A DNA stretch of 64,000 bases, from contig NZ_CP132294.1 in NCBI RefSeq assembly GCF_030734285.1, positions 496,001-560,000 on the forward strand. The letters run 5' to 3'. Below the pieces are notes generated by a model. The model saw only the letters and a list, made by a program, of their open reading frames with translations, was not told the DNA's origin and ran no database searches. Shown piece after piece: positions 7,427 through 48,140 of the stretch. Made by a program: the position numbers and the translations under genes. The DNA is from Natronococcus sp. AD-5 (GTDB lineage: Archaea; Halobacteriota; Halobacteria; Halobacteriales; Natrialbaceae). The stretch's first letter is position 1, and every line of letters begins with the position of its first letter.

Positions 7427-7460
7427 CCGAATGTACGCCGGCAGACGCCGGTGAGTCGAT

Positions 7461-8633
7461 ATGGGGAACGGACAACTGCTCACGACGGCGGCCGACGAAA
7501 CGCGGCGGGAGTCTCCGTCCGCGCAATCGGCGGGCGACATCGTCCTCGAACTCGAGGACGTCGCGAAACGGTACGGCGACGAGACCGTGATCTCGGACCT
7601 CTCGCTCTCCGTCCGCGACGGCGAAATTCTCACGCTGCTCGGCCCGTCCGGCTGCGGGAAGACGACGACCCTGCGGCTCATCGCCGGACTCGAGAAACCG
7701 AACGGCGGCGGCATTCGCCTCCAGAACGATCCCGTCGCGGGGAACGGTCGGTTCGTCCCCGCGGAGGACCGCGGTATCGGAGTCGTCTTTCAAGAATTCG
7801 CCCTGTTTCCGCACCTCACGGCCCGGGAGAACGTCGCCTTCGGTCTCCAGGACTGGTCCGAGCCGAAGCGCGAGGCCCGCGTCGCCGAACTGCTCGAACT
7901 CGCCGGGCTCGAAGCGCACGGCGACGACTACCCGGACGAACTCTCGGGCGGGCAACAGCAGCGGATCGCGCTCGCCCGGTCGCTCGCCCCCGAACCGGAG
8001 ATGCTCCTGCTCGACGAACCCTTCTCGAACCTGGACGTCGATCTGCGCGTCGAGATGCGCGAGGAAGTTCGCCGGATCATCAAGCAAGCGGGCGTCACCG
8101 CCATCTCCGTCACGCACGACCAGGAGGAGGCGATGTCGATCTCCGACCGCGTCGCCGTGATGAACGACGGCAGCATCGAACAGATCGACACCCCCGAGCG
8201 GGTCTTCCAGCAGCCCGAGTCGCGGTTCGTCGCGGGCTTTCTGGGTCACGCCAGCTTCCTCTCGGGGGCCGTTCGCGGCGACCACGTCGACACCGCCCTC
8301 GGGCGGGTGCTCCGCGACGACGTCAACGGGCTCGCCGAACAGTACGACGGCACCACCGTCGACCTGCTCGTCAGGCCGGACGACGTGACCGCCTTCCCGG
8401 CCGAAGACGCCGACACGGACGCCGACGGCACGGTCGTCTATCGACGCTACCTCGGCCCGACCGTCCTCTACCGCGTCGAACTCGACACCGGCGAGACCAT
8501 CGAGTGCATGCACAACCACTCCGACCGGATCGGCCTGGACGAACGGGTCGCCGTTCGCGTCACCGCCGACCACGAACTCGCCTGGTTCCCGGCCGGCCAG
8601 CGGACCAGAAACCCGTCGGTCGCTTCGGACTGA
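7461..8633 (+). CDS. ABC transporter ATP-binding protein, probable iron import type
   Basis: A 390-aa ATPase of the MalK/FbpC/PotA group. Walker A is GPSGCGKTT (residues 61-69), the signature is LSGGQ (161-165), Walker B is MLLLDEP (181-187), and the H-loop is VTHDQ. Residues of about 260-380 form a C-terminal TOBE-like regulatory region. A metal-repressor-like operator lies just upstream, suggesting regulation by iron or manganese. No permease or binding-protein gene adjoins it, so it must energise a permease encoded elsewhere. The exact substrate is inference. Confidence 0.88.
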   Translation: MGNGQLLTTAADETRRESPSAQSAGDIVLELEDVAKRYGDETVISDLSLSVRDGEILTLLGPSGCGKTTTLRLIAGLEKPNGGGIRLQNDPVAGNGRFVPAEDRGIGVVFQEFALFPHLTARENVAFGLQDWSEPKREARVAELLELAGLEAHGDDYPDELSGGQQQRIALARSLAPEPEMLLLDEPFSNLDVDLRVEMREEVRRIIKQAGVTAISVTHDQEEAMSISDRVAVMNDGSIEQIDTPERVFQQPESRFVAGFLGHASFLSGAVRGDHVDTALGRVLRDDVNGLAEQYDGTTVDLLVRPDDVTAFPAEDADTDADGTVVYRRYLGPTVLYRVELDTGETIECMHNHSDRIGLDERVAVRVTADHELAWFPAGQRTRNPSVASD

Positions 8634-23942: not shown

Positions 23943-24015
23943 ACGGACGCGGCCCGCCGCGGCGCGAACTCGTGACATGGCAATCCTTTTCCCCGGTGGT
24001 CGTGAATCCAGACCT

Positions 24016-24387
24016 ATGACAGACGAAAACGAAGCCAACGGCGACAACGGCGACAACGGCGACGGCGGCGAGGAGAAGTCCTTCCGCGAGCGAGTCGAGG
24101 AGATCCGCGAAAAGCGAGCCGAGGAGGGCGAAGGCGAAGGCGAGCCCCCGGAGAGCCCGTTCGGTGGCGGCGGCGGTGGCCCCGGCGGCATGGGCGGCGG
24201 CAACCCGTTCGCCCAGATGATGGGCGGCATGATGGGCGGCGGCCCCGGCGGCCCCGGCGGTCCGGGCGGCCGCGGCCAGGAGGAAAGTAACGAGGAACTC
24301 GTCCGCGAAGTGCGACAGCTCCGCGACGAGATGCGCGACCAGACCCGCGCGTTAAAGCGCATCGCCGACGCGCTCGAGGACCAGTAA
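24016..24387 (+). CDS. Gly/Met-rich linker protein with C-terminal coiled coil
   Basis: A 123-aa protein in three parts. An acidic charged N-terminus (residues 1-50, with NGDNGDNGDG and KSFRERVEEIREKRA) is followed by a flexible middle (50-88) rich in Gly, Pro and Met, with GGMGGGN and MMGGMMGGG. A short C-terminal coiled coil (LVREVRQLRDEMRDQTRALK) ends it. It could be an oligomerising adaptor. I recognise no family with known function. Convergent with the glycosyltransferase gene. Confidence 0.65.
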   Translation: MTDENEANGDNGDNGDGGEEKSFRERVEEIREKRAEEGEGEGEPPESPFGGGGGGPGGMGGGNPFAQMMGGMMGGGPGGPGGPGGRGQEESNEELVREVRQLRDEMRDQTRALKRIADALEDQ

Positions 24388-24410: not shown

Positions 24411-25532
24411 CTATCGCACCGTCAGCGACGCGTACGCCCGCTGGAGCCGATCGATCGCTCGATCGACGCCGATCGACGACCGGTGCTCGAGACAGCGCTC
24501 CTCGAACGCCGCGCGATCGGCGAGGACGCGCTCGATCGCGCGCGCGAACGACTCGTCGTCGCACGGCGGGTAGTGCAGCCCGGTCTCGCCGTCGCTCACG
24601 GTCTCCGCGAGCGCGCCCGCATCGACGGCGACGACCGGCGTGCCGCAGGCCATCGCCTCGAGCGCGACCATCCCGCGCGTCTCGACGGGGCTCGGGAACG
24701 CGAAGACGTCGAGCGCCGCGTACAACGCCGGCAGGTCGTCCCTGTCGAGAAACCCGAGGAAGCGCGCGTCGACGCCGAGCGCCGCAGCCCGCCGTTCGAG
24801 CGCGGGTCTGGCGGGGCCGTCGCCGCCGAAGACGACCGTGACGCGATCGGTCTCGAGTCGCGCCGCCGCCTCGAGCAGTTCCTGGAGGCGTTTCTCGTGA
24901 CCGTGGCGACCGGTGTAGCCGATCAGCGGGCGATCGGGCTCGAGGCCGTACCGATCGCGAAACCGCGTCGCGTCGACGGGCCGGAACCGCTCGGTGTCGA
25001 CGCCGTTGGGAACGACGCGGACGGGCGTCGAGACGCCGACGCGCTCGCGGACGTCGTCGCGGGTCGTCGTCGACGGGACGAGTACGAGGTCGGCGCGGTC
25101 GTAGAACCGGCGTTCGTACGCGGTCACGCCCCGTCCCACGAGATCGGCGAGTCGCTCCCCCGGTGCGACGTACGGCGCGTACGCGGCGGTCGGCGTGTGG
25201 TAGGACGCGACCAGCGGGAGCGCCGCCGTGCGCGCGTACCGCAGGGCGGCGAGGCCGATCGGAAACGGCGTGTGAGCGTGGACGACGTCGATTCGGGGAA
25301 GCGTCCGCGGAACGCGCGGCTGGCCGAGTCGGAACCCCTCGTAGAACGGAAAACCGACGCTCGGAAGGGGGTGTTCCCCGTCGCCGGGTTCGTAGCCCGC
25401 GGCGTCCGGGAAGACGACCTCCATTCGGCCCCCGCGCCGAGTCCACCGATCGCGCCAGGTGCGGACGGCGTAGGTAGTGCCGTTGACCGTCGGGAGGTAG
25501 GTGTCGGTGAAGGCGGCGACCCGTTCGAGCAT
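24411..25532 (-). CDS. GT4-family glycosyltransferase
   Basis: A 373-aa GT-B glycosyltransferase. N domain: FTDTYLPTVNGTTYAVRTW, VHAHTPFPIGLAALRYA. C domain: VVPNGVDTERF, IGYTGRHGHEKRLQELL, and the nucleotide-sugar motif PSPVETRGMVALEAMACG with its ExxxxxxxE glutamates. It resembles enzymes that glycosylate membrane lipids (diacylglycerol or phosphatidylinositol mannosyltransferase types). It is the last gene of a same-strand run and begins 57 bp after the PAP2 gene stop, so a lipid-linked acceptor is a reasonable guess. Confidence 0.88.
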   Translation of the reverse strand: MLERVAAFTDTYLPTVNGTTYAVRTWRDRWTRRGGRMEVVFPDAAGYEPGDGEHPLPSVGFPFYEGFRLGQPRVPRTLPRIDVVHAHTPFPIGLAALRYARTAALPLVASYHTPTAAYAPYVAPGERLADLVGRGVTAYERRFYDRADLVLVPSTTTRDDVRERVGVSTPVRVVPNGVDTERFRPVDATRFRDRYGLEPDRPLIGYTGRHGHEKRLQELLEAAARLETDRVTVVFGGDGPARPALERRAAALGVDARFLGFLDRDDLPALYAALDVFAFPSPVETRGMVALEAMACGTPVVAVDAGALAETVSDGETGLHYPPCDDESFARAIERVLADRAAFEERCLEHRSSIGVDRAIDRLQRAYASLTVR

Positions 25533-25589
25533 TCGTTCGGATCGTCTCTGCCGTCGCGTAAATGCGTTGGTTCGTGCGGCGTTCCCGAG

Positions 25590-26429
25590 CTACCGGTGGC
25601 GGATCGAGGCCGCCCACCGCTCGAGGGAGATCCGTTCGGAGAGCGACCAGCGATCGACGAGCATGCCCGCGAGTTCGACGCAGACGTACGCGAGGACGGC
25701 CCCGGCGACGACGTCGATCCCCCAGTGGATCCCCAGGTACATCGTCGAGAACGCGACGCTGATCCCCAGCACGCCCGCGACGGGATACCAGCGCGGGTAG
25801 ACGCCCCGCGTTCGATGGGCGAGGATGGCGACGGTGGCCGCGAGCGAGGTGTGCAACGACGGGAAGACGTTCGTGTTGCGGTTGACTTCCCGTGTGAGGT
25901 GCTGGTACTGCGGGTACGTATCGTACAGTAGGGCCTGGACTTCGGGCATCACGTTCCGCGGCCCGTAGGCGATGACGAAGACGTACAACAGGAGTCCGAG
26001 CGCGTAGTTGAGCGTGTACGCCGTCAGCAGCTCCCGCAGCGGCCGAGTGTTCGACAGCGCGAAGTAGGCGACGACGGGGAAGACGAGCAGGAAGACGTAG
26101 CCGTAGATGTAGATGAACGAGAAGTACGACGTCAGCGCCGCCGTCTCGTAGGACTGGAGCCAGAAGATGAATCGGCCTTCGATCTCGTAAATCTGCCACG
26201 TGGGGTTCCAGTCGATTATCCACGAGAGGTCGGGGACGACCTCTCTGGCGACGCTGTTGCCGAGCAATACGGCGGCGAGGACGACCGTGACCGGCGTGGC
26301 CGCACGCACCCGGTCTTTCCACTCGACGCGGGTCTCTCGGAGCCGGTAGCGGCCGACGAAGAGGCCGAGTCCGGCGAGTATCATGAGCGTCACGACGATA
26401 ACCAGCTGGACGAGTACCTGGACCAGCAT
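25590..26429 (-). CDS. PAP2/Aur1-like membrane phosphotransferase (copy A)
   Basis: A 279-aa protein with about six transmembrane helices. The PAP2 superfamily active site is present: GPRN (156-159), FPSLHTS with His193, and STMYLGIHWGIDV with His235 and Asp239. The PSLH variant and overall layout fit the inositolphosphorylceramide-synthase (Aur1) branch, which transfers or hydrolyses lipid phosphate. Its ATG overlaps the stop of the solute-binding lipoprotein gene by one base (TGATG), so translation is coupled. A close paralogue is at 28260-29132. Confidence 0.87.
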   Translation of the reverse strand: MLVQVLVQLVIVVTLMILAGLGLFVGRYRLRETRVEWKDRVRAATPVTVVLAAVLLGNSVAREVVPDLSWIIDWNPTWQIYEIEGRFIFWLQSYETAALTSYFSFIYIYGYVFLLVFPVVAYFALSNTRPLRELLTAYTLNYALGLLLYVFVIAYGPRNVMPEVQALLYDTYPQYQHLTREVNRNTNVFPSLHTSLAATVAILAHRTRGVYPRWYPVAGVLGISVAFSTMYLGIHWGIDVVAGAVLAYVCVELAGMLVDRWSLSERISLERWAASIRHR

Positions 26430-28195
26430 CAGCGTCTCACCCGGAGCGTTCCGTCGTCGTACTGGAAACCGGCGTCTTCGAACGCTTTCCTGGCGGCCTC
26501 GACGTCGAGTTCGCCGTCGGTACCGGAGAAGGGCACCTCCGGATCCTCGCCGGCCCAGGCGAGGTCGTCGGGCGTCCACTCGTCGGTTACGGGGGTCGCG
26601 GTCGGGCGAGCGTAGCCGTGGAACACGTCCTGGACCAGCCACTCCTTGTCGAGCAAGCTGGCAACGGCCCGTCGGAACCGCGGGTTGCCGAACGGCGCCC
26701 GGCGCGTGTTAAATCCGACGTGGTAGAACGTCCAGGACGGCGACTCGACGAGGTCCGTCCCCTCGACTGACTCGACGTCGTCGAGGACGTAGGTCTCGAG
26801 GGTCGAACTCGTGACGTCCGCGCTGTCCGTGGAGACGAGTTCGATCGCCGACGTGCTACGGGGATCGATCTGAATCCGCACCTCGTCGACGGTCGGTTCG
26901 GGCAGATCCACCCCGTTTCGGAGCGTGAAGTGATCCTCGAAGCGCTCGAGCGTGAGGTGTTCGCGCTCGGTCCGGCTCCCGAACCGGAAGGGACCGCTGC
27001 CGATCGGCGGGACGTTGTCCGTGGTGATCGCCTCGGTCGTCCCCCCCGCGACGCGAACGCCGGGGACGGTCGCCGGCGTCGCGCGCTCGCTCCAGACGTG
27101 CTCGGGGAGGATCGGCACCGTCAGCGCGCGCTCGGCGACGGCCCCGCCCGCGTCGACGCTGAACTCGAGCTCGTAGTCCCGGCCGTCCCGTTTCTCGGCG
27201 CCCTCGACGATCGCCGCCGGCCCTCGATACTGGGGCGGGGGCGACGGACTTTCACCCCCGCCGAGTTCGGTGTCCCGGAGCAAGTCGTAGGTGAAGACGA
27301 CGTCGTCGGCGGTGAGCGCTTCGCCGTCGTGGAAGCGACAGCCCTCGCGGAGTTCGACGCGGAGGGTTCCGTCCTCGAACTTCCAGTCCTCGGCGAGCCA
27401 GGGCTCGAGTTCCCCGTCGCGTTCGGTCGCCAGCGAGTCGTACAGCAGGCCGATAACGGGGTCGTGATCGCGGTACTCGACCGTGAGCGGATTGACGTTC
27501 TCCGAGGGACGCGCGTCCGTGTGGACGGCCCGCAGGCGATCGGTGCCCCCCCGTGGCGTGAGACCGAGATAGCCGAGCCGAGTCGCCAGGTGGCCCTCCT
27601 CCCAGCCGTCGAAGCGGTCGGTTCTGACCATCCGGTGCTCCTCGGGGATGCAGATCGGCACGAACGGCTGTTCGCGAGCGACCTCCTCGAGCAGTTCCTC
27701 GACGGCCGCCTCACGCTCGTCGCCGTCCGTTCGGCGCTGCTCCTCGAGTAATTCGTCGATCCGCAGGTTCGCGTACCCGAAGGGGTTCTGCCAGCCGGAC
27801 TCCTCGGCGTACAGCGAGTGCAACGCCTCGTAGAGGAAGTCCGGATCGGTCCCGCCCGGATGCCGGCCGACGTAGAGGTCGAAGTCGTGGTTGATCAAGA
27901 TCGCCCGCAGAAACTCCTCGTTCGAACGCATCTCGATCGAGGCATCGACGCCGGCGGCCTCGAGGACGGCGGCGATCTCTCGCGCGATTCGGATGCTCTC
28001 CCGGTCGCCGTCGGCGGGGACGGTCGTGATCGTAAGCGAGAGCTGGTCGACGTCGTTCCGGTTGACGACGGTTCGGACCTGTCGAACGCAACCGCCCGTC
28101 GCGGCGGTCAGTCCGGCGGTTCCGGCGAGGACGGCACGACGACTGTAGCCGCGTTCGACGGACGTATCACCCGAAACGGCCTCTCGCGCAGTCAT
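26429..28195 (-). CDS. Circularly permuted SBP family 5 lipoprotein (copy A)
   Basis: A 588-aa Tat lipoprotein: RR at 19-20, lipobox ending in Cys36. Segment order is unusual. Residues 51-200 (LSLTITTVPADGDRESI, INHDFDLYVGRHPGGTDPDF, REQPFVPICIPEEHRMV) match the C-terminal third of DppA/OppA-type binding proteins. Residues 220-588 match their N-terminal two thirds: NVNPLTVEYRDHDPVIGLLY, LREGCRFHDGEALTADDVVF, PIGSGPFRF, FGNPRFRRAVASLLDKEWLV, and finally DVEAARKAFEDAGF. The two termini would join exactly as in a normal family 5 protein. No permease or ATPase is nearby. Coupled to the PAP2 gene. Confidence 0.85.
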   Translation of the reverse strand: MTAREAVSGDTSVERGYSRRAVLAGTAGLTAATGGCVRQVRTVVNRNDVDQLSLTITTVPADGDRESIRIAREIAAVLEAAGVDASIEMRSNEEFLRAILINHDFDLYVGRHPGGTDPDFLYEALHSLYAEESGWQNPFGYANLRIDELLEEQRRTDGDEREAAVEELLEEVAREQPFVPICIPEEHRMVRTDRFDGWEEGHLATRLGYLGLTPRGGTDRLRAVHTDARPSENVNPLTVEYRDHDPVIGLLYDSLATERDGELEPWLAEDWKFEDGTLRVELREGCRFHDGEALTADDVVFTYDLLRDTELGGGESPSPPPQYRGPAAIVEGAEKRDGRDYELEFSVDAGGAVAERALTVPILPEHVWSERATPATVPGVRVAGGTTEAITTDNVPPIGSGPFRFGSRTEREHLTLERFEDHFTLRNGVDLPEPTVDEVRIQIDPRSTSAIELVSTDSADVTSSTLETYVLDDVESVEGTDLVESPSWTFYHVGFNTRRAPFGNPRFRRAVASLLDKEWLVQDVFHGYARPTATPVTDEWTPDDLAWAGEDPEVPFSGTDGELDVEAARKAFEDAGFQYDDGTLRVRR

Positions 28196-28259
28196 TCGAT
28201 CGATACCTTCAGTTCAGCTATGACGATACAACAGTATTGCGCTGTCGCGTACCGCCCGG

Positions 28260-29132
28260 TCACTCGGTGTCACGACCCCGTTCGTCCAGTCGCCGCTCCG
28301 CGTGCTCGAGTAGTTCCGCGAGCGACCAGCGATCGACGAGGTGCGTCGAGAGCGCGACGCAGGTCACCGCCAGCACGAGGCCGGCGGCGACGTCGATCCC
28401 CCAGTGGATCCCCAGGTACATCGTCGAGATCGCGACGCTGACCGCGAGCACGATCGCGACGGGGAACCACTTCGGATAGCTCGAGCGGGTCTGGTAGGCG
28501 AACATCGCGACGGTGGCCGCGAGCGAGGTGTGCAACGACGGGAAGACGTTGTCGTAGCTGTTGACCTCCCGGGTGAGGTGCCTGTACTCGGGGCTGTTGT
28601 CGTACAGCATCGTCACCGTCACCTCCTCCGGCATCATGTTTCGCGGACCGTAGGCGATGACCAGCAGGTAGAGGACGAGTCCGATGACGTAGTTGAGCGA
28701 GTACGCCGTCAGTAACCGCCGGAAGATCCGGGTATCGGAAAGCGCGAAGTACGCGATGACGGGAAAGACGAGCATGAACGTGTAACCGTAGACGTAGATC
28801 GCCGAGAAGTACGCCGTTAGCTCGTCGGTCGCGATCGACTGGAAGATCAGGACGAACTCCCCCTCGAGGCGGTAGAACGTCTCGGTCATGTGGAGCCCGA
28901 TCTTGCCGGAGATGTCCTCGCCCTGCTGGCGCATGATCCTGTTGAGCACCAGGACGGCGAGCAGGGTGACGATCGTCGGCGCCGACACTCGAAGTCGGGA
29001 ACGCCACGCCGCCTTCGTCTCGAGGAGGCGCTCGCGGCCGACGAAGACGGCGATCGAGACCAGGAGCGCGATTGTGACGACGACGAAGACCTGCGTCAAC
29101 AGCTCGGTGAGTATCGTTCGTTCGGGGATCAT
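28260..29132 (-). CDS. PAP2/Aur1-like membrane phosphotransferase (copy B)
   Basis: A 290-aa paralogue of copy A, with the same six-helix layout and motifs: GPRN (162-165), FPSLHTS with His201, and STMYLGIHWGIDV with His243 and Asp247. It starts 5 bp after the stop of the second permuted binding-protein gene. Conserved loops around EVN-NVFPSLHTSLAATVA are nearly identical in both copies, while the first 90 residues differ more. The substrate is probably a lipid phosphate or lipid-linked phosphoalcohol (inference). Confidence 0.87.
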   Translation of the reverse strand: MIPERTILTELLTQVFVVVTIALLVSIAVFVGRERLLETKAAWRSRLRVSAPTIVTLLAVLVLNRIMRQQGEDISGKIGLHMTETFYRLEGEFVLIFQSIATDELTAYFSAIYVYGYTFMLVFPVIAYFALSDTRIFRRLLTAYSLNYVIGLVLYLLVIAYGPRNMMPEEVTVTMLYDNSPEYRHLTREVNSYDNVFPSLHTSLAATVAMFAYQTRSSYPKWFPVAIVLAVSVAISTMYLGIHWGIDVAAGLVLAVTCVALSTHLVDRWSLAELLEHAERRLDERGRDTE

Positions 29133-29137
29133 TGTGC

Positions 29138-31030
29138 TTACAGGCGGAGTCGCCCCTGATCGTCGTACCGGAACTCGTTCGCGAACGCTTCCCTGGCGGC
29201 GTCGACGTCGAGTTCGCCGTCGGAGCCGAAAAACGGCGTCGCCGGATCCTCGTCGTCTTCGTCGCCCCAGACGAGTTCGTCGGGTACCCACTCGTCCGAC
29301 AGCGGGACCGAAATGGGATCCGCGTGGTTGCCGAACACGTCGTCGACGATCCACGCCTTGTCGAGCAGCCGGGAGACGAGGCGTCGAGCGCGCGGGGTAC
29401 TGAACGCCCCGGTGCGGGTGTTGAACCCGACGTGGTAGAACGTTTCCGACTGCTGCGGCCCGAGCCACGTGATGTCGCCTCCCTCGTCGTCATCGAGCCT
29501 GTTCTTGAGCGCGTGCGCGTTGAGCATCGAGGCCGTGACGTCCGCGCTGTTGTTTACGACGCGGTCGACCGCGGTGCCGCCGGGGTCAATCCCGAACGTG
29601 ACCGACTCGAGATCGCCGACGTCGGGAAGCCCGTCCTCATCTCGCGTGAAGTGCTCGTCGTTGCGCTCGAGCGTGAGCGACTCGCGCTCGCTGTTGCTCA
29701 CGAATCGGAACAGGCCGCTACCGATGGGCGGGATGTTACTCATGGTGACGAGGCCCCACTCTCCCTGCGAGGCGGTGTCGGTCTCGGATCGGGACTTGAC
29801 CTGACTGCGCCACCGGTGTGCGGGAAGGATGGGCACGGTCAGCGCACGCTTGGCGACGGACTCGACGTTAGTCGTCACGTCGATCCGGAGCTTGCGGGAG
29901 TGTTCGCGGAGGAAGTCCTTGATGACGATGTCTTCGTCGGGATCGTCGATCACCGAAACGCGGCCCCGGTACCGCGGTGCGGGAGAGGGAACGTCCGCGT
30001 TGCCGAGCGAGGTGTCCTGGAGGAACTGATAGGTGAACCTGACGTCCTCGGCGGTCACGTATCTGTCCTCCTCGCTCTCCTCGTTGTCGTGGAACGGACA
30101 CTCCTCGCGGAGCTCGATGTGGAGACTCCCGTCGTCCCACTCGACGTCCTTGGCGAGCCAGGACTCGAGTTCTCCGTCGCGTTCGGTCAGCAGCGAGTCG
30201 TACACCAGGTCGAGGATCATCCCTCGGTCCCGGATCGTCGCGGAGAGCGGATTCAGGTTGCGTGTCGGCCACGTATCCGTAATGAGCGCGCGCAACTGGT
30301 CGACGCCGGGTTCCGGATCGAGGTCGAGAAACCCGTACCGCGTCGGGAAGTGTCCTGCGCCCCCATCGTCGTCCCCGTCGCCCTCGTCGCCGTTCCAGGC
30401 GCCGAAAGTGTCGGTCCGGGCGACCCGGTACTCCTCGGGGATACAGATGGAATCGAACGGCTTCATCTCGACCAGTTTCTCGAGCAGATCGGCGATGACG
30501 TCTTTACGGGTATCGCCATCGCCGGCCCGTCGCTGCTCTTCGAGTAACTCGTCGACGGTCGGGATCTCGGACGCTCCCTCGGACGGGACCTCGGGCGGAC
30601 TCATAGACGGGCTTTCATCGAACCCGAAGAGGTTCTGCCAGCCCCGCTCGTCGGCGTACTTGGAGTGGAGAGCGCCGTAGAGAAAGTCCGGATCGATACC
30701 ACCCGGATGCTGACCGACGTAGAGGTCGAAGTCGTGGTTGATCAGGATCGTCTCGTGGAACTCCGAGGGCGAACGCATGTCGATGGAGACGTTGGCACCG
30801 ACGGCTTTGAGGTTGGCCTCGAGATGGCGGGCGATCCGGACGGCTTCTCTGTCGTTGTCCGCGGGGACCGTCGTTATGGAGAGGGCGAGGCGGTCTGTAA
30901 CATCCTGACCGACGACGCTTTCGACGCTGTCGATACAGCCGCTGGTCGAGAGGGTAAGGCCAGCGGCTGCGCCGGCGAGAACGGACCGCCGACTAACGCC
31001 GTCGGTTGGATTAGTTGAATTGCGATTCAT
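29138..31030 (-). CDS. Circularly permuted SBP family 5 lipoprotein (copy B)
   Basis: A 630-aa paralogue of copy A with the same permuted order. Tat signal SRRSVLAGAAAGLTLSTSGC (lipid-attached Cys32). Then come the SBP C-terminal segment (LALSITTVPADNDREAVRIA, INHDFDLYVGQHPGGIDPDF) and the N-terminal segments (RNLNPLSATIRDRGMILDLV, IPPIGSGLFRFV, DVDAAREAFANEF). It carries acidic insertions, for example DEGDGDDDGG. Start at MNRNSTNPTD; a ttatata element about 40 bp upstream on the minus strand is a likely promoter for the whole run. Ligand unknown. Confidence 0.85.
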   Translation of the reverse strand: MNRNSTNPTDGVSRRSVLAGAAAGLTLSTSGCIDSVESVVGQDVTDRLALSITTVPADNDREAVRIARHLEANLKAVGANVSIDMRSPSEFHETILINHDFDLYVGQHPGGIDPDFLYGALHSKYADERGWQNLFGFDESPSMSPPEVPSEGASEIPTVDELLEEQRRAGDGDTRKDVIADLLEKLVEMKPFDSICIPEEYRVARTDTFGAWNGDEGDGDDDGGAGHFPTRYGFLDLDPEPGVDQLRALITDTWPTRNLNPLSATIRDRGMILDLVYDSLLTERDGELESWLAKDVEWDDGSLHIELREECPFHDNEESEEDRYVTAEDVRFTYQFLQDTSLGNADVPSPAPRYRGRVSVIDDPDEDIVIKDFLREHSRKLRIDVTTNVESVAKRALTVPILPAHRWRSQVKSRSETDTASQGEWGLVTMSNIPPIGSGLFRFVSNSERESLTLERNDEHFTRDEDGLPDVGDLESVTFGIDPGGTAVDRVVNNSADVTASMLNAHALKNRLDDDEGGDITWLGPQQSETFYHVGFNTRTGAFSTPRARRLVSRLLDKAWIVDDVFGNHADPISVPLSDEWVPDELVWGDEDDEDPATPFFGSDGELDVDAAREAFANEFRYDDQGRLRL

Positions 31031-41312: not shown

Positions 41313-41387
41313 GGGCGCTTAGCTCAGTCTGGACAGAGTACTTGGCTTCGGACCAAGCTGTCGCGGGTTCAAATCCTGCAGCGCCCA
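41313..41387 (+). tRNA. tRNA-Arg (anticodon TCG)
   Basis: A 75-nt cloverleaf. The acceptor stem GGGCGCT pairs with AGCGCCC, discriminator A. The D arm is AGCTCAGTCTGGACAGAGT. Anticodon stem CTTGG/CCAAG encloses CTTCGGA, giving TCG. The T arm is GCGGGTTCAAATCCTGC. No CCA is encoded. Its 3' end serves as integration site: the last bases are repeated at 47947-47961. Confidence 0.97.
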
Positions 41388-41560
41388 TACATTTGACGCA
41401 CAATAATCGCCCGACAGCGTGGCGATTATCGGTCGAACGACCCTGATCCTTACTTTCGTTCGATGATCGAACGGTGAGTGATCGGCTCGGGAATCCGCGT
41501 ACATCCAAACTGGTCCAGACGGAGAAAATCAATCGGCGATTGACGTAGCAGTCGCTGCTC
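41375..41560 (+). repeat. Left attachment site and extended repeat
   Basis: The 15-bp core lies at 41375-41389. The next about 170 bp match 47962-48140 imperfectly: shared blocks include CAATAATCGCC, GTGGCGATT, TTTCGTTCGATG, GCGTAC-CCAAACT and GAGAAAATCAATCG. A dyad GTTCGATGATCGAAC is at 41458-41472. The remaining stretch to 41698 holds the promoter of the first TIR-like gene (gaatataat near 41668). Confidence 0.7.
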
Positions 41561-41698
41561 CAGTATGAATCCCGCGATGGAAGCCATACACGGCCTTGCA
41601 TATCTCTTGTGCTGAATGTGGCACTTGAAGTGTTCATACTTTAGGTGCCAATCAAAACTGACCAAAGAATATAATGGGCATTGATTGAATGTGGGTAT

Positions 41699-42184
41699 AT
41701 GGCACGAACGACGTTCTTTAGCTTCCACTACGATAACGATATCTGGAGAGCTAGTCAGGTCCGGAATTCAGATGTCGTTGATAATAGTATTGATGAATCT
41801 GGATTTATCGATGGCGCAAGTTGGGAATCAATAAAACGTGATGGGGATGATGCAGTTCGAGACTGGATTAATAGAAATATGAAGGGCTGTTCTGTGACGG
41901 TCGTTTTAATTGGCAGCGAAACATACAATAGAAAATGGATAAATCATGAAATTGAAAAAAGTTATCAAGAAGACATGGGATTAGTCGGCGTTAGGATTCA
42001 CAAAATACGAGATGAAGGCGGAAACAGGGATGGGCGTGGTAATAATCCGCTGTCAAGATATCAAGATTCGAACACAGGTGAAAGTCTGTCTTCTATTTTT
42101 AATACCTATGATTGGGTAAGTGATAATGGACGCGAGAATTTAGGGGATTGGGTGGAGGAGGCGGCTCAAATTGCTAACCGGTAA
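41699..42184 (+). CDS. TIR-like (ThsB/DUF1863-type) protein 1
   Basis: A 161-aa MTH538-type TIR-like domain protein. It opens MARTTFFSFHYDNDIW, has a VTVVLIGSETYNRKW strand-turn, and INHEIEKSYQ with Glu84 where TIR NADases place the catalytic acid. It then has GLVGVRIHKIRDE and FNTYDWVSDN. Thoeris ThsB proteins use this fold to make cyclic-ADP-ribose-like signals; whether this protein does so is inference. Codon use is AT-rich. Its stop overlaps the next start by one base (TAATG), so it is coupled to the two-TM gene. Confidence 0.8.
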   Translation: MARTTFFSFHYDNDIWRASQVRNSDVVDNSIDESGFIDGASWESIKRDGDDAVRDWINRNMKGCSVTVVLIGSETYNRKWINHEIEKSYQEDMGLVGVRIHKIRDEGGNRDGRGNNPLSRYQDSNTGESLSSIFNTYDWVSDNGRENLGDWVEEAAQIANR

Positions 42185-42612
42185 TGGGCGATAACGACCT
42201 TCGTACAAAAGATCTTGAATTCATTCAAGATATCATCACTCGTTTGTCTGAAAACTCATTTAAAATTAAAGGGTGGTCAGTCACACTTATTGTGGTGGTC
42301 CTTCTTTTCCGGACTAGAGATCTGCACCTCTTAGTTGCATTTATACCTCTCTTCGGATTCTGGACATTGGATGCATACTACCTCAAACTTGAGCGAAGAT
42401 ATCGATCTATGTACAAGGACGCAAGGACAGGAAATAAAGATAGGGACCAGTTCGAGATGGATTCATCTGCGTATAGTGTAGACTCAGTCCCGGAATTAAT
42501 GCTCTCAAAGTCGTTAGCACTTTTCCACGGAACAATTTTCATTCTACTATTAATATATTCGGTGTTTGTCTTCCTATTGTGGTTGTATCCTAAATTGTAT
42601 CATATATTATAA
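42184..42612 (+). CDS. Two-TM membrane protein partner of TIR-like protein 1
   Basis: A 142-aa protein. The conserved N-terminus DLEFIQDIITRLSENSFKIK leads into a first hairpin of two membrane helices (about 30-65), then a basic amphipathic region LKLERRYRSMYKDARTGNKD, and a last helix FHGTIFILLLIYSVFVFLLW. Similar small membrane proteins accompany TIR-like genes in other prokaryotes, from memory of the family pattern, and they could be a membrane effector. Co-translated with the TIR gene. Confidence 0.7.
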   Translation: MGDNDLRTKDLEFIQDIITRLSENSFKIKGWSVTLIVVVLLFRTRDLHLLVAFIPLFGFWTLDAYYLKLERRYRSMYKDARTGNKDRDQFEMDSSAYSVDSVPELMLSKSLALFHGTIFILLLIYSVFVFLLWLYPKLYHIL

Positions 42613-42709
42613 TATATTTCACTATCCTTTGTAAGGTTTGATGGGTCTTGACAGTGCTGATTAATGAACGGGAGAACGTATAATGACCTCTAACTGTAAC
42701 ACTAATACT

Positions 42710-43144
42710 ATGGCAGATTGTGAGTTTTGTAAGATCGTATCCGAAGACGCGCCAAGCAGCGTTGTTTATCAGAATGACCGTACTTTGGCTATGATGACTC
42801 TTCGGCCAATGGCCAGAGGTCATATTCTTGTGATACCAAAAAAACATGCGGCCTCACTATCAGAAATGGAATACAAAACCGGGGGAGAACTGTTTGAGGT
42901 GGGGATGAAAATAGCTGAGGCGCTCAGAGTTTCAGAAATAGAGAGTGAAGGGATCAACTTTTGGCTAGCAGACGGGGAAGCCGCCGGTCAGGAAGTATTT
43001 CACGTTCATCTTCACGTGTTGCCAAGGTCAGAAACAGACGGAATTCGTTTGGAAGGACCGCGATTAGACTTGAATCGCTCAGAGATGGACTCCGACGCGG
43101 AAATCATCAAAGAACAGTTAAATGGAGATGAACATGAATTTTAA
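42710..43144 (+). CDS. HIT-family nucleotide hydrolase/transferase
   Basis: A 144-aa HIT protein. CEFCKI at the N-terminus, RGHILVIPKKHAASLSEMEY, and the HIT triad HVHLHVLPR. HIT enzymes act on nucleotide phosphoramidates, dinucleoside polyphosphates or ADP-ribose-like compounds. Located between two TIR-like genes in an AT-rich island, it may process a nucleotide signal, though housekeeping HIT function is equally possible. Start at MADCEFC; an earlier ATG adds nine unlikely residues. Confidence 0.88.
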   Translation: MADCEFCKIVSEDAPSSVVYQNDRTLAMMTLRPMARGHILVIPKKHAASLSEMEYKTGGELFEVGMKIAEALRVSEIESEGINFWLADGEAAGQEVFHVHLHVLPRSETDGIRLEGPRLDLNRSEMDSDAEIIKEQLNGDEHEF

Positions 43145-43213
43145 TTTCATTCCTGGTCAGTACGCACAGTCATTCCAACAACTGAATCGGAGAACAGCAT
43201 TCGTTCAGCGGTC

Positions 43214-43999
43214 TCAGATCAACCCGTCGTTGTCATCGTCGTCCTGATTTATGAGGTCAATCCCAGAGTTAATTAAATCCTCTCCGAAAGATTGTACGTC
43301 AATATTATCAATGTTTTGCTGAGACTTGTTCGGTAGTTCAAGCCCATTCTGGTTCTGAACAGGAGTAGAGTCGTTATTGGCGGTCTGCAGCCATTTGTAC
43401 AGTAGATAGCTTCCACCGACGATTCCCCCTATTTTACCTGCAGATTGGAGGGCCTTCACAAACTTCTCTCCGCTAGTTTTCTCTCTAATCGACCTCTTCT
43501 CTTTCTGAGTGAGGTGGTCGGCCTGCTGTTTGGCATCTTCAACCCAGTCCCCTATGTTATCCCAGCCATCATCTCTCTTCCATTCGTACGTCTCAAATAC
43601 GTTGGAGAGTTTCTTCACCCCGTCTTTGGTTTCGATGGCGAAATCTTTCAACGGGTTGGAGCCTTGGAGATCCTGACCGTCGTCCTTGTCTTTCAACCGG
43701 TGTATCCTGATGCCGATTATTCCGTTACCCTGCCTGACGCTCTCCTTAATCTCGTAGTTGACGTATTTCCGGTTCGCGGTTTCGTTACCGATCAGAACTG
43801 CTGTTACTGAGGTACCGTGTAGCTGGTCGTCTATCCAGTTCTTGATCTCTTCCTCGCTTTGCTTTTTGACTTCCTCCCAGTCCGCAGCGTCCTCAAAACC
43901 AGCGGCTTCTCTCCCTTGCGTCACCCACGCATTTCTAACCGGGTTGACTCGCCACTTGTCTCTCTCGTAGTGGAAGCTAAAGAATACTCTCCGAACCAT
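43214..43999 (-). CDS. TIR-like (ThsB/DUF1863-type) protein 2 with membrane anchor
   Basis: A 261-aa protein. Residues 1-150 match TIR-like protein 1: MVRRVFFSFHYERDKWRVNP, VTAVLIGNETANRKYVNYEI with Glu83, GIIGIRIHRLKDKD, and FETYEWKRDDGWDNIGDW. A basic linker (LTQKEKRSIREKT) precedes one hydrophobic segment (AGKIGGIVGGSYLLYKWLQ), followed by a polar Asn/Gln/Asp-rich tail. So the TIR domain is membrane-tethered here. It is transcribed opposite to the TIR1-HIT genes and stops near the HIT gene stop. Confidence 0.82.
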   Translation of the reverse strand: MVRRVFFSFHYERDKWRVNPVRNAWVTQGREAAGFEDAADWEEVKKQSEEEIKNWIDDQLHGTSVTAVLIGNETANRKYVNYEIKESVRQGNGIIGIRIHRLKDKDDGQDLQGSNPLKDFAIETKDGVKKLSNVFETYEWKRDDGWDNIGDWVEDAKQQADHLTQKEKRSIREKTSGEKFVKALQSAGKIGGIVGGSYLLYKWLQTANNDSTPVQNQNGLELPNKSQQNIDNIDVQSFGEDLINSGIDLINQDDDDNDGLI

Positions 44000-44109
44000 G
44001 CTTTGAACTTGTAGCCTAGTTGAATACCCACCAGTATCAAAATTCCGCTATTATAGTAAAAGTAAAATCAGGGAGAAGGTTCGAGGGTCCTTTGTATAAT
44101 CCACTCTTT

Positions 44110-45000
44110 GGCTCTGGTGAATCGCCATACTGCATCGGCTTCGACCGGTAGAACTAGGAAGATGAAGCGGGAAACCGCCGATGCCTATGTCGAAGATTTC
44201 CCGCTTCACGAGCAAAGTCGTTCAGTTAGCTCAAAATGCTGTTGGTGGCCGAGGCGAAGTCGCCGCCCCCGAAGGGGGTGGCGGCTTCGCCGATTACGCT
44301 GTTGTGTCGCTGCATTGTCTTCGGGTTTACCTAGAGAAATCGTATCGAGAAGCACTAGATTTGCTGAGTGAGATGCCACATATTCTCGGGGAGATCGGCC
44401 GGTTCAAGGCCGATCTCCCCGACCACTCCACGATAGTCAAGTGTTTGATAAGATTAAGACAGCACTCTGGCGAGTGCTGCTGCGCCTCTCGGCGCAGTTG
44501 CACGAACCGAGCGGACACGCCGCCATCGACGCGACGTTCTTCGACCGCGAAAACGCGAGCAAACACTACTGCCGGCGGACGAATTACCGGTTTCAGACGC
44601 TCAAAGCAACAGCTCTCGTCGATACAAAACCCAAACCGTTCTGGACGTTCACTGTACGACCGAGAAACGCCACGACACACAGCTCGACTGACGACAAAGG
44701 CTACGACTGGATAGAATTACGCGAAAAACTTCGGGAAGATAGCGTGAGACCGTTGATCAAGCATCGTGAGTTCCGGCCCATCGATCACGCGCACAACGCG
44801 CGGATCGATGGACCGCGCTACTGGCAACGAGCGATGTGTAAGACCGTCTTCTCGGCGATCAAGCGCACGCTCGGCGACGCCGTGCGTGCGCGATCCTGGT
44901 ATGGTGAATTTCGTGAACTCGTCCTGATGTGTACGGTTCATAACACCAAGCAGGCGGTGAAACAGTGAAATTACGCCACGTCTGGTGATTCACCATGGCC
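44110..45000 (+). mobile_element. Decayed IS5-like insertion sequence
   Basis: About 890 bp bounded by imperfect 18-bp inverted repeats, GGCTCTGGTGAATCGCCA and the right end read inward GGCCATGGTGAATCACCA (15 of 18 identical). The single transposase gene inside is frameshifted and internally deleted, so the element should be immobile. Target-site duplication is not clear. Confidence 0.75.
44181..44968 (+). pseudogene. IS5-family transposase, frameshifted
   Basis: The N-terminal frame runs from SKISRFTSKVVQLAQNAVG to GRFKADLPDHSTIVKC. After 44445 the other frame continues FDKIKTALWRVLLRLSAQLH and IDATFFDRENASKHYCRRTN, the first catalytic Asp region. Around 44615-44690 a third frame reads TQTVLDVHCTTEKRHDTQLD, followed by an internal deletion before DKGYDWIELREKLRED. 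The end KTVFSAIKRTLGDAVRARSW carries the final Glu-region helix type. A haloarchaeal IS5-type DDE transposase with at least two disabling changes. Confidence 0.85.
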
Positions 45001-45065
45001 GTTTATTTCATTGTTACTGTACAGAAGCCCACTCCGTAACTATGCGGACGTTGCCTCGGATATAG

Positions 45066-45281
45066 TCACTCAAGCGTCAGATAAGCCGTAACTTCACGGA
45101 AGTCCTTCAAGTCTTCCCGGTGAGTGGACTCCACATACTGGATAGTCTCTCGGGCTAAATCCTCAGCGGCTGCGTAGTGGAGGTTGCCTCGCCGCTCAAC
45201 GTTGATGAGATCGCCCTCCACTTTCTCGTAGGAGATGTCCGGGTCTCCATAGTTGAACTTGGTCACGTCGTCCAACGGCAC
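45066..45281 (-). CDS. Small hypothetical protein beside the IS
   Basis: A 71-aa frame with GTG start, MPLDDVTKFNYGDPDISYEK, ending YVESTHREDLKDFREVTAYLTLE. The reading frame stays open upstream (DENTDQRTATIT) without a start codon, so the gene may be 5'-truncated. Composition is normal for the island. Function unknown. Confidence 0.4.
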   Translation of the reverse strand: MPLDDVTKFNYGDPDISYEKVEGDLINVERRGNLHYAAAEDLARETIQYVESTHREDLKDFREVTAYLTLE

Positions 45282-45616
45282 GGTTATCGTGGCCGTCCTC
45301 TGGTCCGTGTTCTCATCTTCGAACTCGTGCTGGTTGCGCTGGTCTCATTTCGCTTGGGGCAGCGAGCCAACCACCTGCGGTAACGAACAACTGGACTCAA
45401 TCAACGACATAAGCGGAGAGTTCACTAGTAAACACATGGGGAGACTCACGTTTGCTTCTTGCAGCTACGGATTCACCGCAAGCTCCGTTCGATGCTGTAC
45501 AAAAGTGGGTCCTGCCAAGAATCGATTCAGGCGGATTTACCCCCGTAGGAACTCTTCTGTTCACCCTAATTAACATCTATTTTATACGAGCATCATCAAC
45601 GGTTAGCACAATCAAG
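45282..45616. other. Upstream region of the large island membrane protein
   Basis: No gene I can support. It contains a TATA element ttttata at 45580-45586, placed about 27 bp before the presumed transcription start of the gene at 45617, which would have a leader of roughly 10 nt. Confidence 0.5.
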
Positions 45617-47134
45617 ATGTCGGAAGCAGATGAATCGCCCGAAGTAGAAGACATTACCCGGTTCAGCTTTCTCAGAGAGCGAGCTAACCAATTTCAGTCA
45701 ATAGCTGGCGATGCAAAGAGCTGGTTGAGGACAAACTTCCTTATCATCGGGTTCTTCCTCCCAATCATCGGATCCCTGTTCTCTGGTCAACTATCTCCAG
45801 AGAAGGTATTTAATAACGCTTACACCCAGGTTGGCCTGATTGTGTGGGTGCTATCGACGTTGCTCTTTTCCTTCATTTATCATCGAGCTCGGGTCGTCGC
45901 TAAGACACACTTTGATCCTGTTGAGGCAGAGATGTTGGGCGAGATTCCCGAAAACGAACGGCGCTACCGCATCCAAGACACGATAGATGAATACAGTAGT
46001 TCGGTTGGTAGTCTCAATCTCTTTATCTCCGGATGCACATTACTCACACTGATTGCCACGACTCTCTTTGCACTCGGAGTGTTACTTCCCTACGTCTCTG
46101 TCATTCCACAGTTTAATACACTAGTCATCGTTGGGGCTGTCCTCGGTACCGCCGTTTTAACGGCTTGTGGATACAAAATCCGGGGATACCTCCCGAATGT
46201 CAGCCAGTTACTTTTTCGGAATACTACCGGCTGGAACGACCTTACAAAACCACGCCAAGACCTGATGAAAAAGATCTATGTTGCCGTTGGAACTGACCCT
46301 TTCCAACTGTCTGATTTGCCATTAAAACACGAGACCCCGATGTATTCGGGGACATTATCTTCCTCTTCAATTGATGAATCACATATCCTGCTACGGGACG
46401 TTTCCGACAACAATGTCAGTGAGTATCTGCTTGAGCAAATGGTTGATGAGGGCTATTTCGAAAAGGCAGGTAACACCGATGCAACGACTATCAAACCACC
46501 ACATACCTATGAGGAGTTCACAATTGACGAGATTGAGGACGAAGTTGAGACGGCTATTGATAGGTTAGGTCGGGAGCTTGATAGCAACGCTGACGGCCGT
46601 GAGGTCGCTGCAGAAGAACTTAGTCTACGACCAGATGAAGTGCTGGAGGAACTTCGTGTCGGCGACGAGCTAGATCGGATTAAACGATATAACCGCGTCG
46701 TTGAACGTTTACGAGAGGAAGACTTCGATCTCGCTTCCCGACCTTTTGAGTTCACATCTGACGAGGTGACGTATGTCCCCACGGAGCTGGCCGAACAAGC
46801 ATACGAAAAGATTGAGATGGAAGAACGAACACGGGAATACGACCGTGAGGTAGCCGAGCGACAAGAGCAGGCTCGAAGAGCGGAAAACACGATTCGGTAT
46901 CGTGTTGTTGAACCAGCAGATGAATTTGGTGAGATACAGATAGTAACCCACGACATCTCTGTCCCGGAATCATACCATGAGTGGTTGAGTCTCCCTGAAG
47001 CCGACATCACTCCTGAAGAGCGCGAGCAGCTTCAAGAGTTAGAAGCGGGCGACGAAATCCAACTGCGAACCGAAACACACCCACGTTCGGGCGAAGATCA
47101 CATAGTTTCTGTCGGGCCTCCTTCATCATCTTGA
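45617..47134 (+). CDS. Large island membrane protein of unknown function
   Basis: A 505-aa protein. Residues of about 40-80 hold two helices (LRTNFLIIGFFLPIIGSLF, YTQVGLIVWVLSTLLFSFIY). Residues 140-190 hold two more (LFISGCTLLTLIATTLFALG, TLVIVGAVLGTAVLTACGY). The C-terminal 300 residues are soluble, with a winged-helix-like stretch (VSEYLLEQMVDEGYFEKAG) and a long charged helix (YEKIEMEERTREYDREVAER). The start was placed at MSEADESPEV because of the TATA position. Membrane-anchored effector or sensor is plausible in this island, but nothing is proven. Confidence 0.65.
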   Translation: MSEADESPEVEDITRFSFLRERANQFQSIAGDAKSWLRTNFLIIGFFLPIIGSLFSGQLSPEKVFNNAYTQVGLIVWVLSTLLFSFIYHRARVVAKTHFDPVEAEMLGEIPENERRYRIQDTIDEYSSSVGSLNLFISGCTLLTLIATTLFALGVLLPYVSVIPQFNTLVIVGAVLGTAVLTACGYKIRGYLPNVSQLLFRNTTGWNDLTKPRQDLMKKIYVAVGTDPFQLSDLPLKHETPMYSGTLSSSSIDESHILLRDVSDNNVSEYLLEQMVDEGYFEKAGNTDATTIKPPHTYEEFTIDEIEDEVETAIDRLGRELDSNADGREVAAEELSLRPDEVLEELRVGDELDRIKRYNRVVERLREEDFDLASRPFEFTSDEVTYVPTELAEQAYEKIEMEERTREYDREVAERQEQARRAENTIRYRVVEPADEFGEIQIVTHDISVPESYHEWLSLPEADITPEEREQLQELEAGDEIQLRTETHPRSGEDHIVSVGPPSSS

Positions 47135-47180
47135 TGATTGGCTGACTACAACGGGTAATCAAAATCAGCTGCACAGCAAG

Positions 47181-47597
47181 TCAGAGCGTGTCGAACGAGT
47201 CGATTACGTCACCCGTTGTGTACGTCTCTGTTAAATCCTGCTCGTCGAAGTCGGAATCATCGCTCCAGATGGCCGCATCGCAGGCGAACGCACACGCCAG
47301 ATAGAGCACATCGTCGGGGTCGGTGTCACCGATTGCTTCGTCTGCTCGATCGATAGCCGGATAGAAATCGTCGGCGGGGACGACCTCGATGTACTGAAAC
47401 AGGAGGTCGATGAACTGTGTCACCCGGTCTGGTTCCATCCCGGATTTCTCCACGATCAGGTCCTCATAGTTCTCGATTTCGTCGTAAACGAACGCAGGCG
47501 TCAAGAGGTCCGGTTCAAGTGTCACGATGAGCTCGCGCGTTTTCGAATCGGCGATGAGTGCGGAAATGACGACGTTGCCGTCGATGACCAGCCTCAT
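47181..47597 (-). CDS. PIN-domain toxin (VapC-like)
   Basis: A 138-aa PIN ribonuclease domain: MRLVIDGNVVISALIADSKT (first Asp), TPAFVYDEIENYE (Glu), DPDDVLYLACAFACDAAIWS (second Asp) and DDSDFDEQ (last acids). All four acidic positions are kept, so it should be active. It lies 8 bp after its antitoxin gene at the right end of the island, where it could select against island loss. Confidence 0.88.
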   Translation of the reverse strand: MRLVIDGNVVISALIADSKTRELIVTLEPDLLTPAFVYDEIENYEDLIVEKSGMEPDRVTQFIDLLFQYIEVVPADDFYPAIDRADEAIGDTDPDDVLYLACAFACDAAIWSDDSDFDEQDLTETYTTGDVIDSFDTL

Positions 47598-47605
47598 TCG
47601 TCGGT

Positions 47606-47836
47606 TCAGGCCGATTCCTCGTCAACTCGATTTCGCGCGCTCTCGTTGATTTTGTCGGCGATCTCTTGCACGTCACGCTCAGTGAGCTCGCTCTCGCCGG
47701 TTAGTTCATCCATCACTTCCAGCGCCTCGATTTTCTCTTGGATGGCCTGCCGCGTAACTTCACTCCAGTTGATCTCCGGGTGCTTTTCCATTCGCTTTTT
47801 GAGGTCGTCGTCCACGTTTACGGTGATACTGGGCAT
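47606..47836 (-). CDS. Ribbon-helix-helix-type antitoxin (VapB-like)
   Basis: A 76-aa protein: MPSITVNVDDDLKKRMEKHP, then INWSEVTRQAIQEKIEALEV, the classic ribbon-helix-helix N-terminus that binds operator DNA, followed by an acidic helical tail (ELTERDVQEIADKINESARN) expected to wrap the PIN toxin. It is first in the operon with the PIN gene. Confidence 0.87.
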   Translation of the reverse strand: MPSITVNVDDDLKKRMEKHPEINWSEVTRQAIQEKIEALEVMDELTGESELTERDVQEIADKINESARNRVDEESA

Positions 47837-47946
47837 ACAGGAAAATATGGATACACAGATTACTGTGTCTTTCGGTGTGCTTCACACCTCTCGAATTCGG
47901 CTGCCTCACGCCTGAAAGGTCGATTCGTTCGATGGTCGAACCGGAG

Positions 47947-48140
47947 CCTGCAGCGCCCATAGATTTGAGACGCAATAATCGCCGGTCTGCGTGGCGATTT
48001 TTAATCGAACGGCCATCTTCGGTGCTTTCGTTCGATGGTCGGACGCGGGGGTGGTTTCCACCGGGATTCGCGTACGGCCAAACTCGTGGGAAATGAGAAA
48101 ATCAATCGCTGGTTGATGTGAAGACGGATTCCAGTTTGGC
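47947..48140 (+). repeat. Right attachment site and extended repeat
   Basis: Core CCTGCAGCGCCCATA at 47947-47961, identical to the tRNA-Arg 3' end, followed by sequence homologous to 41390-41560. The dyad GTTCGATGGTCGAAC lies just outside the core (47927-47941), and a variant is at 48030-48044. From 48141 to 48394 I see only a short AATTGCA-type AT-rich stretch and no gene. Confidence 0.7.

Follow-up and report, generated by a model that had tools for sequence, protein, structure and literature searches.

Lipoproteins with the fold of a substrate-binding protein (SBP) can aid envelope enzymes in mycobacteria where no importer is involved. In the portion of the source available, LpqZ is described as binding AftA and FecB as binding AftB, and the FecB complex, in which the partner enzyme is a GT-C, also contains a beta-propeller protein (PMC12802301). 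Another mycobacterial lipoprotein, LpqW, channels an outer-leaflet glycolipid intermediate and steers the mannolipid flux against PimE, as the available part of that article reports (PMC3229680). In the present work, a stretch of 64,000 nucleotides (nt) from the haloarchaeon Natronococcus sp. AD-5 was analyzed (the window; NZ_CP132294.1, positions 496,001 to 560,000), in which five genes at 24411-31030 encode two SBP lipoproteins, each followed by a membrane enzyme of the PAP2 family, and a GT4 glycosyltransferase. Judged by gene order and genome content, the link between SBP and PAP2 is real, widespread and functional. We favor the reading, which we consider somewhat probable, that a single recruitment in the haloarchaea turned an importer SBP into the accessory subunit of an Aur1-type PAP2 enzyme acting outside the cytoplasm.

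LpqW presumably has the fold of SBP family 5. It differs from the haloarchaeal SBPs in that no PAP2 partner is mentioned in the available part of its description (PMC3229680). The LpqZ-AftA and FecB-AftB systems are similar to the haloarchaeal one in joining an SBP-fold lipoprotein without a transporter to a membrane envelope enzyme; according to the portion of the source available, which makes no mention of permutation, LpqZ and FecB are relatives of ProX and of FecB/SirA, their partners are arabinosyltransferases and not PAP2 proteins, and their interaction was physically shown, whereas the haloarchaeal pair is supported by gene linkage and shared history (PMC12802301). Importer SBPs of the DppA/AppA type (PF00496) belong to the same family, with distant permuted members in importer operons, but the haloarchaeal clade is set apart by its pairing with PAP2, by inserts of its own and by the lack of an importer. 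No description of the SBP-PAP2 pair was found in the literature searched. The original prediction, made earlier from the sequence of the window, had suggested that the cassette is an undescribed system, and within that literature this stands for the pair but not for the theme of orphan SBPs, which was already known. By this analogy, the pair is an extension of that theme, and what is new is the partner enzyme rather than the kind of system.

As read from the sequence, the minus strand carries the five genes one behind the other, in the following order:
29138..31030, minus strand: SBP-B, 630 amino acids, circularly permuted SBP_bac_5 lipoprotein (Pfam) with a twin-arginine translocation (Tat)-type signal and a lipobox Cys
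28260..29132, minus strand: PAP2-B, 290 amino acids, Aur1-type PAP2_3 membrane enzyme, starting 5 nt past the SBP-B stop
26429..28195, minus strand: SBP-A, 588 amino acids, circularly permuted SBP_bac_5 lipoprotein (Pfam, AppA alignment, PDB search)
25590..26429, minus strand: PAP2-A, 279 amino acids, Aur1-type PAP2_3 membrane enzyme, its start sharing 1 nt with the SBP-A stop
24411..25532, minus strand: GT4 glycosyltransferase gene (Pfam GT4 domains), 57 nt past PAP2-A, an optional accessory

PAP2-B and SBP-A are 64 nt apart. These coordinates agree with the five one-strand genes and the spacings given in the original prediction. PF00496 (SBP_bac_5) was matched by both SBPs (E 1.3e-23 and 7.2e-53; 84.2 and 180.4 bits against a cut-off of 32.4), and PF14378 (PAP2_3) by both enzymes (E 6.9e-18 and 5e-17; 65.6 and 62.8 bits against a cut-off of 27). 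Since SBP-A and SBP-B are 53% identical and PAP2-A and PAP2-B 56%, the two cassettes are, as far as sequence identity tells, an old tandem duplication. The same genome holds a third SBP-PAP2 pair, whose SBP is 36% identical (G000:C1:995405), as well as a fourth such PAP2, beside which no SBP match was listed (G000:C1:3333357). The nearest named relatives by SBP-A are Natronococcus, with 77% identity. No permease of an ATP-binding cassette (ABC) transporter was found among the window's open reading frames (ORFs) of at least 80 codons, and the sole ABC-ATPase-like ORF of the window, at 7455-8630, is far from the cassettes, in agreement with the earlier statement that the cassette lacks both components.

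Loci were collected by a search for related loci, by searches of genomes and as chosen stretches, and loci from this set were scanned in six frames. The 157 SBP rows were reduced to 139 by dropping an out-of-order locus (L049) and exact repeats, and incomplete SBP matches were uncounted. Of the 139, 129 reached a score of 250 bits against the profile from the window and are referred to here as the clade; the other 10 scored lower. This sample was picked for spread and good matches and is non-random, thirty of the loci (L016-L045) had a flank of only 1.5 kb per side, and the PAP2 spacings are estimates from profile starts. A PAP2 gene was the next gene downstream, on the same strand and within about 130 nt, for 115 of the 129 clade SBPs, and these 115 pairs span 13 families. 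A permease on the same strand was found for 0 of the 129 within the stretches read. Among the 10 lower-scoring SBPs, none was paired with PAP2 and 8 were accompanied by permeases. The adjacency expected in the original prediction is therefore conserved, and the close family is not one of homologues mostly paired with DppBCDF permeases. In 135 distinct ORFs, the SBP stop codon shared one base with an ATG in 53 cases and overlapped as ATGA in 14, and an ATG followed within 17 nt in 37. A fusion of the two proteins, at which long open frames had hinted, was rejected, as no ORF held both domains.

The same 392 Halobacteriales genomes were searched for SBP and PAP2 at E 1e-20, and matches were obtained in 253 and 248 genomes, respectively. 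Both were present in 247 genomes, SBP only in 6, PAP2 only in 1 and neither in 138, counts which share ancestry and are not phylogenetically independent, so that a Fisher value is no probability here. In the SBP-only genomes (G015, G105, G187, G245, G287, and G317) the best matches were weak in all; importer permeases accompany L118, L119, L127, L129, and L130, which come from four of these genomes, and no permease was recognized at L128 and L145, from G245. A search of the phylum gave matches in 31 of 294 genomes, all 31 of the same family or order, the outside share of the 294 not being listed. Taken together, the neighborhood and co-occurrence counts indicate that the adjacency is not due to chance.

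An SBP tree was built from 119 of the 139 SBPs, with Shimodaira-Hasegawa-like approximate likelihood ratio test (SH-aLRT) supports only and with some long branches. On this tree, 109 rows fell on one side of a branch with a support of 100 (101 with a downstream PAP2 and 8 without), and the importer-paired rows were outside the PAP2-paired clade, with a support of 92 as one side. The SBP and PAP2 distances were correlated over 101 pairs (r 0.856), and swaps of copies reached at most 0.831 in 500 trials. Moreover, when duplicated loci were compared two by two, the copies corresponded in 103 of 105 couples, although the couples derive from 15 duplicated loci of related species and so do not represent 105 independent events. 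These results indicated that the paralogous SBP-PAP2 pairs are, from their sequence distances, duplicated as units. The functional partnership claimed in the original prediction is thus upheld by the adjacency, by the missing same-strand permeases and by the near-perfect co-occurrence in genomes.

The binding protein has an unusual order of segments, which are given here for SBP-A:
28088..28147, minus strand: residues 17-36, twin-Arg signal ending at the lipobox Cys36 (conservation of R19, R20, and C36)
27602..28045, minus strand: residues 51-198, the C-terminal segment of ordinary SBPs, here N-terminal (aligns with AppA 359-502)
26432..27451, minus strand: residues 249-588, the N-terminal and central segment of ordinary SBPs (AppA alignment; Pfam SBP_bac_5 positions 1-285)

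When SBP-A was aligned with AppA (1xoc), residues 249-535 corresponded to chain residues 50-311 and residues 51-198 to the C-terminal part, 359-502. Residues 51-215 as a lone query gave four PDB matches, which were all SBPs and all C-terminal (chain residues 371-514). The predicted model of SBP-A had a predicted local distance difference test (pLDDT) score of 78.8 and a predicted template modeling (pTM) score of 0.78; Foldseek, which aligns in sequence order, covered the model partially with a best TM score of about 0.45. SBP-A is, by sequence alignment, circularly permuted. R19, R20, and C36 each had a conservation of 1.00 (two decimals) in the 129 clade members, and together with the AppA segment swap this confirmed the earlier description of the SBPs as permuted lipoproteins.

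The same permuted order was found in SBPs that belong to importers. In the importer-paired haloarchaeal SBP of locus L118, residues 255-567 aligned with AppA 37-345 and residues 76-217 with 365-503. In an SBP from a Nitratireductor plasmid, which adjoins two permeases and two ATPases, residues 202-529 aligned with AppA 22-345 and residues 44-168 with 375-495. Because both align in this way, the permuted SBPs include ordinary importer SBPs, and the permuted order does not exclude transport. The permutation was therefore rejected as the novelty of the system. The original prediction had taken a permuted SBP as such to mark the system, which did not hold, since 8 of the 10 distant permuted SBPs sit with DppBCDF-type permeases and there is a bacterial example too. 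From these alignments the permutation looks older than the PAP2 pairing, with the PAP2-paired clade apparently branching from within the permuted SBPs. As a separate observation, SBP_bac_5 proteins encoded in ordinary importer operons at L118, L119, L120, L121, L122, L124, L126, L127, and L154 run colinear with the permuted form; these operons come from haloarchaea and one alphaproteobacterium, and L118 and L154 were the two compared with AppA for permutation. No publication describing a permuted form of importer SBPs turned up in the literature searched.

Two inserts of the SBP, at about 313-325 and 553-562, are conserved in the clade and missing from the importer-type relatives, which suggests them as the first places to look for a contact between SBP and PAP2. 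Core positions such as G399-S400-G401, R508, and N235-P236 are kept in both clades. A disulfide of conserved cysteines was also considered and rejected, as C182 is kept in only 56%.

The catalytic motifs of the enzyme are intact, as in PAP2-A:
25851..25862, minus strand: residues 190-193, PSLH (C2), with P, S, L, and H at 1.00 each in 101 pairs and the same in Aur1
25713..25745, minus strand: residues 229-239, TMYLGIHWGID (C3), with T229, H235, and D239 at 1.00 in 101 pairs

In the 101 SBP-PAP2 pairs, GPR, PSLH, and T-x5-H-x3-D were all invariant. The C2 and C3 variants, PSLH and STMYLxxHxxxD, are those of yeast Aur1, whose C3 equivalent is STMYLTHHYFVD; PgpB and YodM have PSGH in C2, and SR where the Aur1-type enzymes have ST. 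The predicted model of PAP2-A (pLDDT 79.6) was matched best by Aur1 in VIA-align (Z 15.8 and 15.4), followed by LpxE (13.9) and SMSr (13.4), and the alignment at Z 15.8 covered 211 residues with a root-mean-square deviation of 3.3. This best structural match is the yeast Aur1-Kei1 inositol phosphorylceramide synthase (PDB 9ivc, 9vj4), which shares both motifs and, by its PDB entry title, works with a second subunit. The substrate of the haloarchaeal PAP2 must differ from that of Aur1, since haloarchaea are not known to make ceramides. Kei1 is not known to be an SBP.

In 27 PAP2 sequences, Lys and Arg made up 21-31% of the predicted inside loops and 0-8% of the loops with catalytic motifs. Because of this charge pattern, the active site of PAP2 is predicted to lie outside, on the same side as the lipoprotein. 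The lipobox and the loop charges are both in line with the outward SBP beside an outward enzyme that had been proposed. The annotations for Haloferax gibbonsii pHG2 (genes WP_231608391 and WP_004977931), Halobaculum halophilum, Salinigranum rubrum, and Haloarcula sp. JP-L23 label the SBP an ABC transporter protein and the PAP2 either a phosphatase or an inositol phosphorylceramide synthase.

The genes around the pairs were compared at 95 loci, a few of which overlap one another. A strong GT4 match was present at 6 of them, so the GT4 was rejected as a core part, and its supposed standard role of modifying the product was left unsupported. At L140, from a congener, a GT4 remnant follows the second pair (about 5997-6170), where the gene is decaying in a close relative. 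At least one of a GT-C, an arylsulfotransferase-like (ASST-like) protein and a membrane protein that we call c7 was present at 37 loci. The GT-C, of the PMT_2 type, was found at 20 loci (18 of the 20 cluster members were aligned, and Pfam PMT_2 was matched by 12 of these 18), the ASST-like protein at 15 (assigned by Pfam for the single member scanned) and c7 at 26 (24 of the 26 aligned). None of the three was found at 11 low-scoring loci. In all 18 genomes with a GT-C at the SBP locus, this copy was the genome's best match to the GT-C (family A5), and of 9 other genomes searched, 8 had none and one had a copy elsewhere.

The c7 protein mostly has 360-500 residues and mostly lies just upstream of the SBP. 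No Pfam family was found in its 24 aligned members apart from single weak chance matches, and no PDB match below E 0.4; the idea of an LssY-like domain protein was therefore unsupported, and c7 was left unnamed. It carries the motifs WPYTSR and QxHxEYWDWFRLRHTV (L073:7880-9139 and 25 other loci), and its position upstream of the SBP is found mostly outside Natrialbaceae. ASST proteins are presumably beta-propellers. As far as the available part of the source goes, the FecB trio resembles the SBP, ASST-like protein and GT-C found at many haloarchaeal loci, which may be coincidence.

Gene order, permutation, pairing, co-occurrence, co-duplication, intact catalytic motifs and importer loss are directly supported, and the physical SBP-PAP2 complex, the reaction, the substrate and the direction of the SBP effect are what we infer in the model. 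The importer SBP would have lost its ABC transporter and been recruited once, in a haloarchaeal ancestor, as the accessory subunit of PAP2, and each SBP and its PAP2 would act as a single unit on the outside of the cell membrane. The enzyme would transfer or remove a phosphate-linked lipid head group in the outer leaflet, either of a phospholipid or of a lipid-linked glycan, and the lipid-anchored SBP above it may present or select the part of the substrate that is not lipid, or activate the enzyme in some other way. The products may then enter a cell-surface glycolipid or glycan route, whose glycosyltransferases would differ by lineage, with GT4 here and an outward GT-C plus the ASST-like protein elsewhere. 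A more specific version is tentative and rather doubtful, namely that Aur1-type PAP2 and permuted SBP form a two-subunit lipid head-group transferase of haloarchaea in which the SBP chooses the substrate, and which, with GT-C and ASST-like protein in many lineages, makes an undescribed phosphate-linked surface glycolipid or glycan.

Besides the shared ancestry of the genome counts, several results weigh against the accessory-subunit model. Strict pairing is not required, since PAP2 is missing from the locus of 6 of the 129 SBPs (L055, L061, L096, L098, L099, and L115) and 8 others follow the PAP2, as the second SBP of an SBP-PAP2-SBP triple (L034, L038, L039, L040, L043, L045, L082, and L083). 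In the model's favor, for the SBPs without a local PAP2, a PAP2 of the family was found elsewhere in the genome in 6 of 6 cases. There was no fused ORF with both domains. The Foldseek E-values for the PAP2-A model were weak (best 2.5e-3), and the phosphatases LpxE and PgpB also match the model structurally. Furthermore, the glycan context is partial, because different lineages have different glycosyltransferase partners and neither GT-C nor ASST-like protein nor c7 is present at 58 of the 95 loci.

The conserved core positions bear on another explanation, in which the SBP cleft binds an extracellular solute and switches PAP2 on or off, so that the lipid is remodeled according to the environment and the SBP does not handle lipid. 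The binding cleft may have survived, as these positions are kept in both clades, and duplicated pairs within one genome would fit different ligands. However, the clade-specific inserts suggest protein contact as much as ligand, and we regard such a sensor as unlikely. The outward active site and the phosphatases among the structural matches would also suit scavenging, the role considered in the original prediction, with the SBP capturing phosphorylated or lipid-linked compounds outside and PAP2 stripping the phosphate for uptake. No evidence for it was found: same-strand importer permeases are missing at the loci of all 129 SBPs, the Arg that PgpB and YodM, which are lipid phosphatases, have in C3 is replaced here by Thr, and the recurrent neighbors, where present, are glycosyltransferases and the ASST-like protein, which makes scavenging quite improbable. 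The SBP could also still serve an ABC importer encoded elsewhere, the PAP2 being an incidental neighbor, as 8 of the 10 more distant permuted SBPs serve importers and Dpp-type genes lie close by on the opposite strand in some genomes (L138 and L139). This is hard to reconcile with PAP2 adjacency across 13 families, with the near-perfect co-occurrence that includes all six genomes in which SBP and PAP2 lie apart, and with duplication of the two genes as units, and we give it very little credence.

If the accessory-subunit model is true, the help of importer-less SBPs in building envelopes, a recent finding, would hold for Archaea too, with a new enzyme class involved, and a phosphate-linked lipid or glycan step would exist on the haloarchaeal surface. 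Many genes annotated as "ABC transporter substrate-binding protein" would gain a different likely job.

Next to the cassettes, a small Gly-rich protein is encoded at 23977-24384 on the plus strand. Many Natrialbaceae loci have it at the same place downstream of the cassettes, and no Pfam family was matched above the cut-off. Elsewhere in the window, a low-GC stretch (0.45-0.52) at 41375-48045 is flanked by a direct repeat of 99 nt (80% identical), which overlaps the 3' end of a tRNA-Arg (41313-41387), as in an integrated island. It encodes candidate phage defence proteins, namely two ThsB-like TIR proteins (41675-42178 and 43217-44047) and a small PDC-M50A-like protein (42178-42609).

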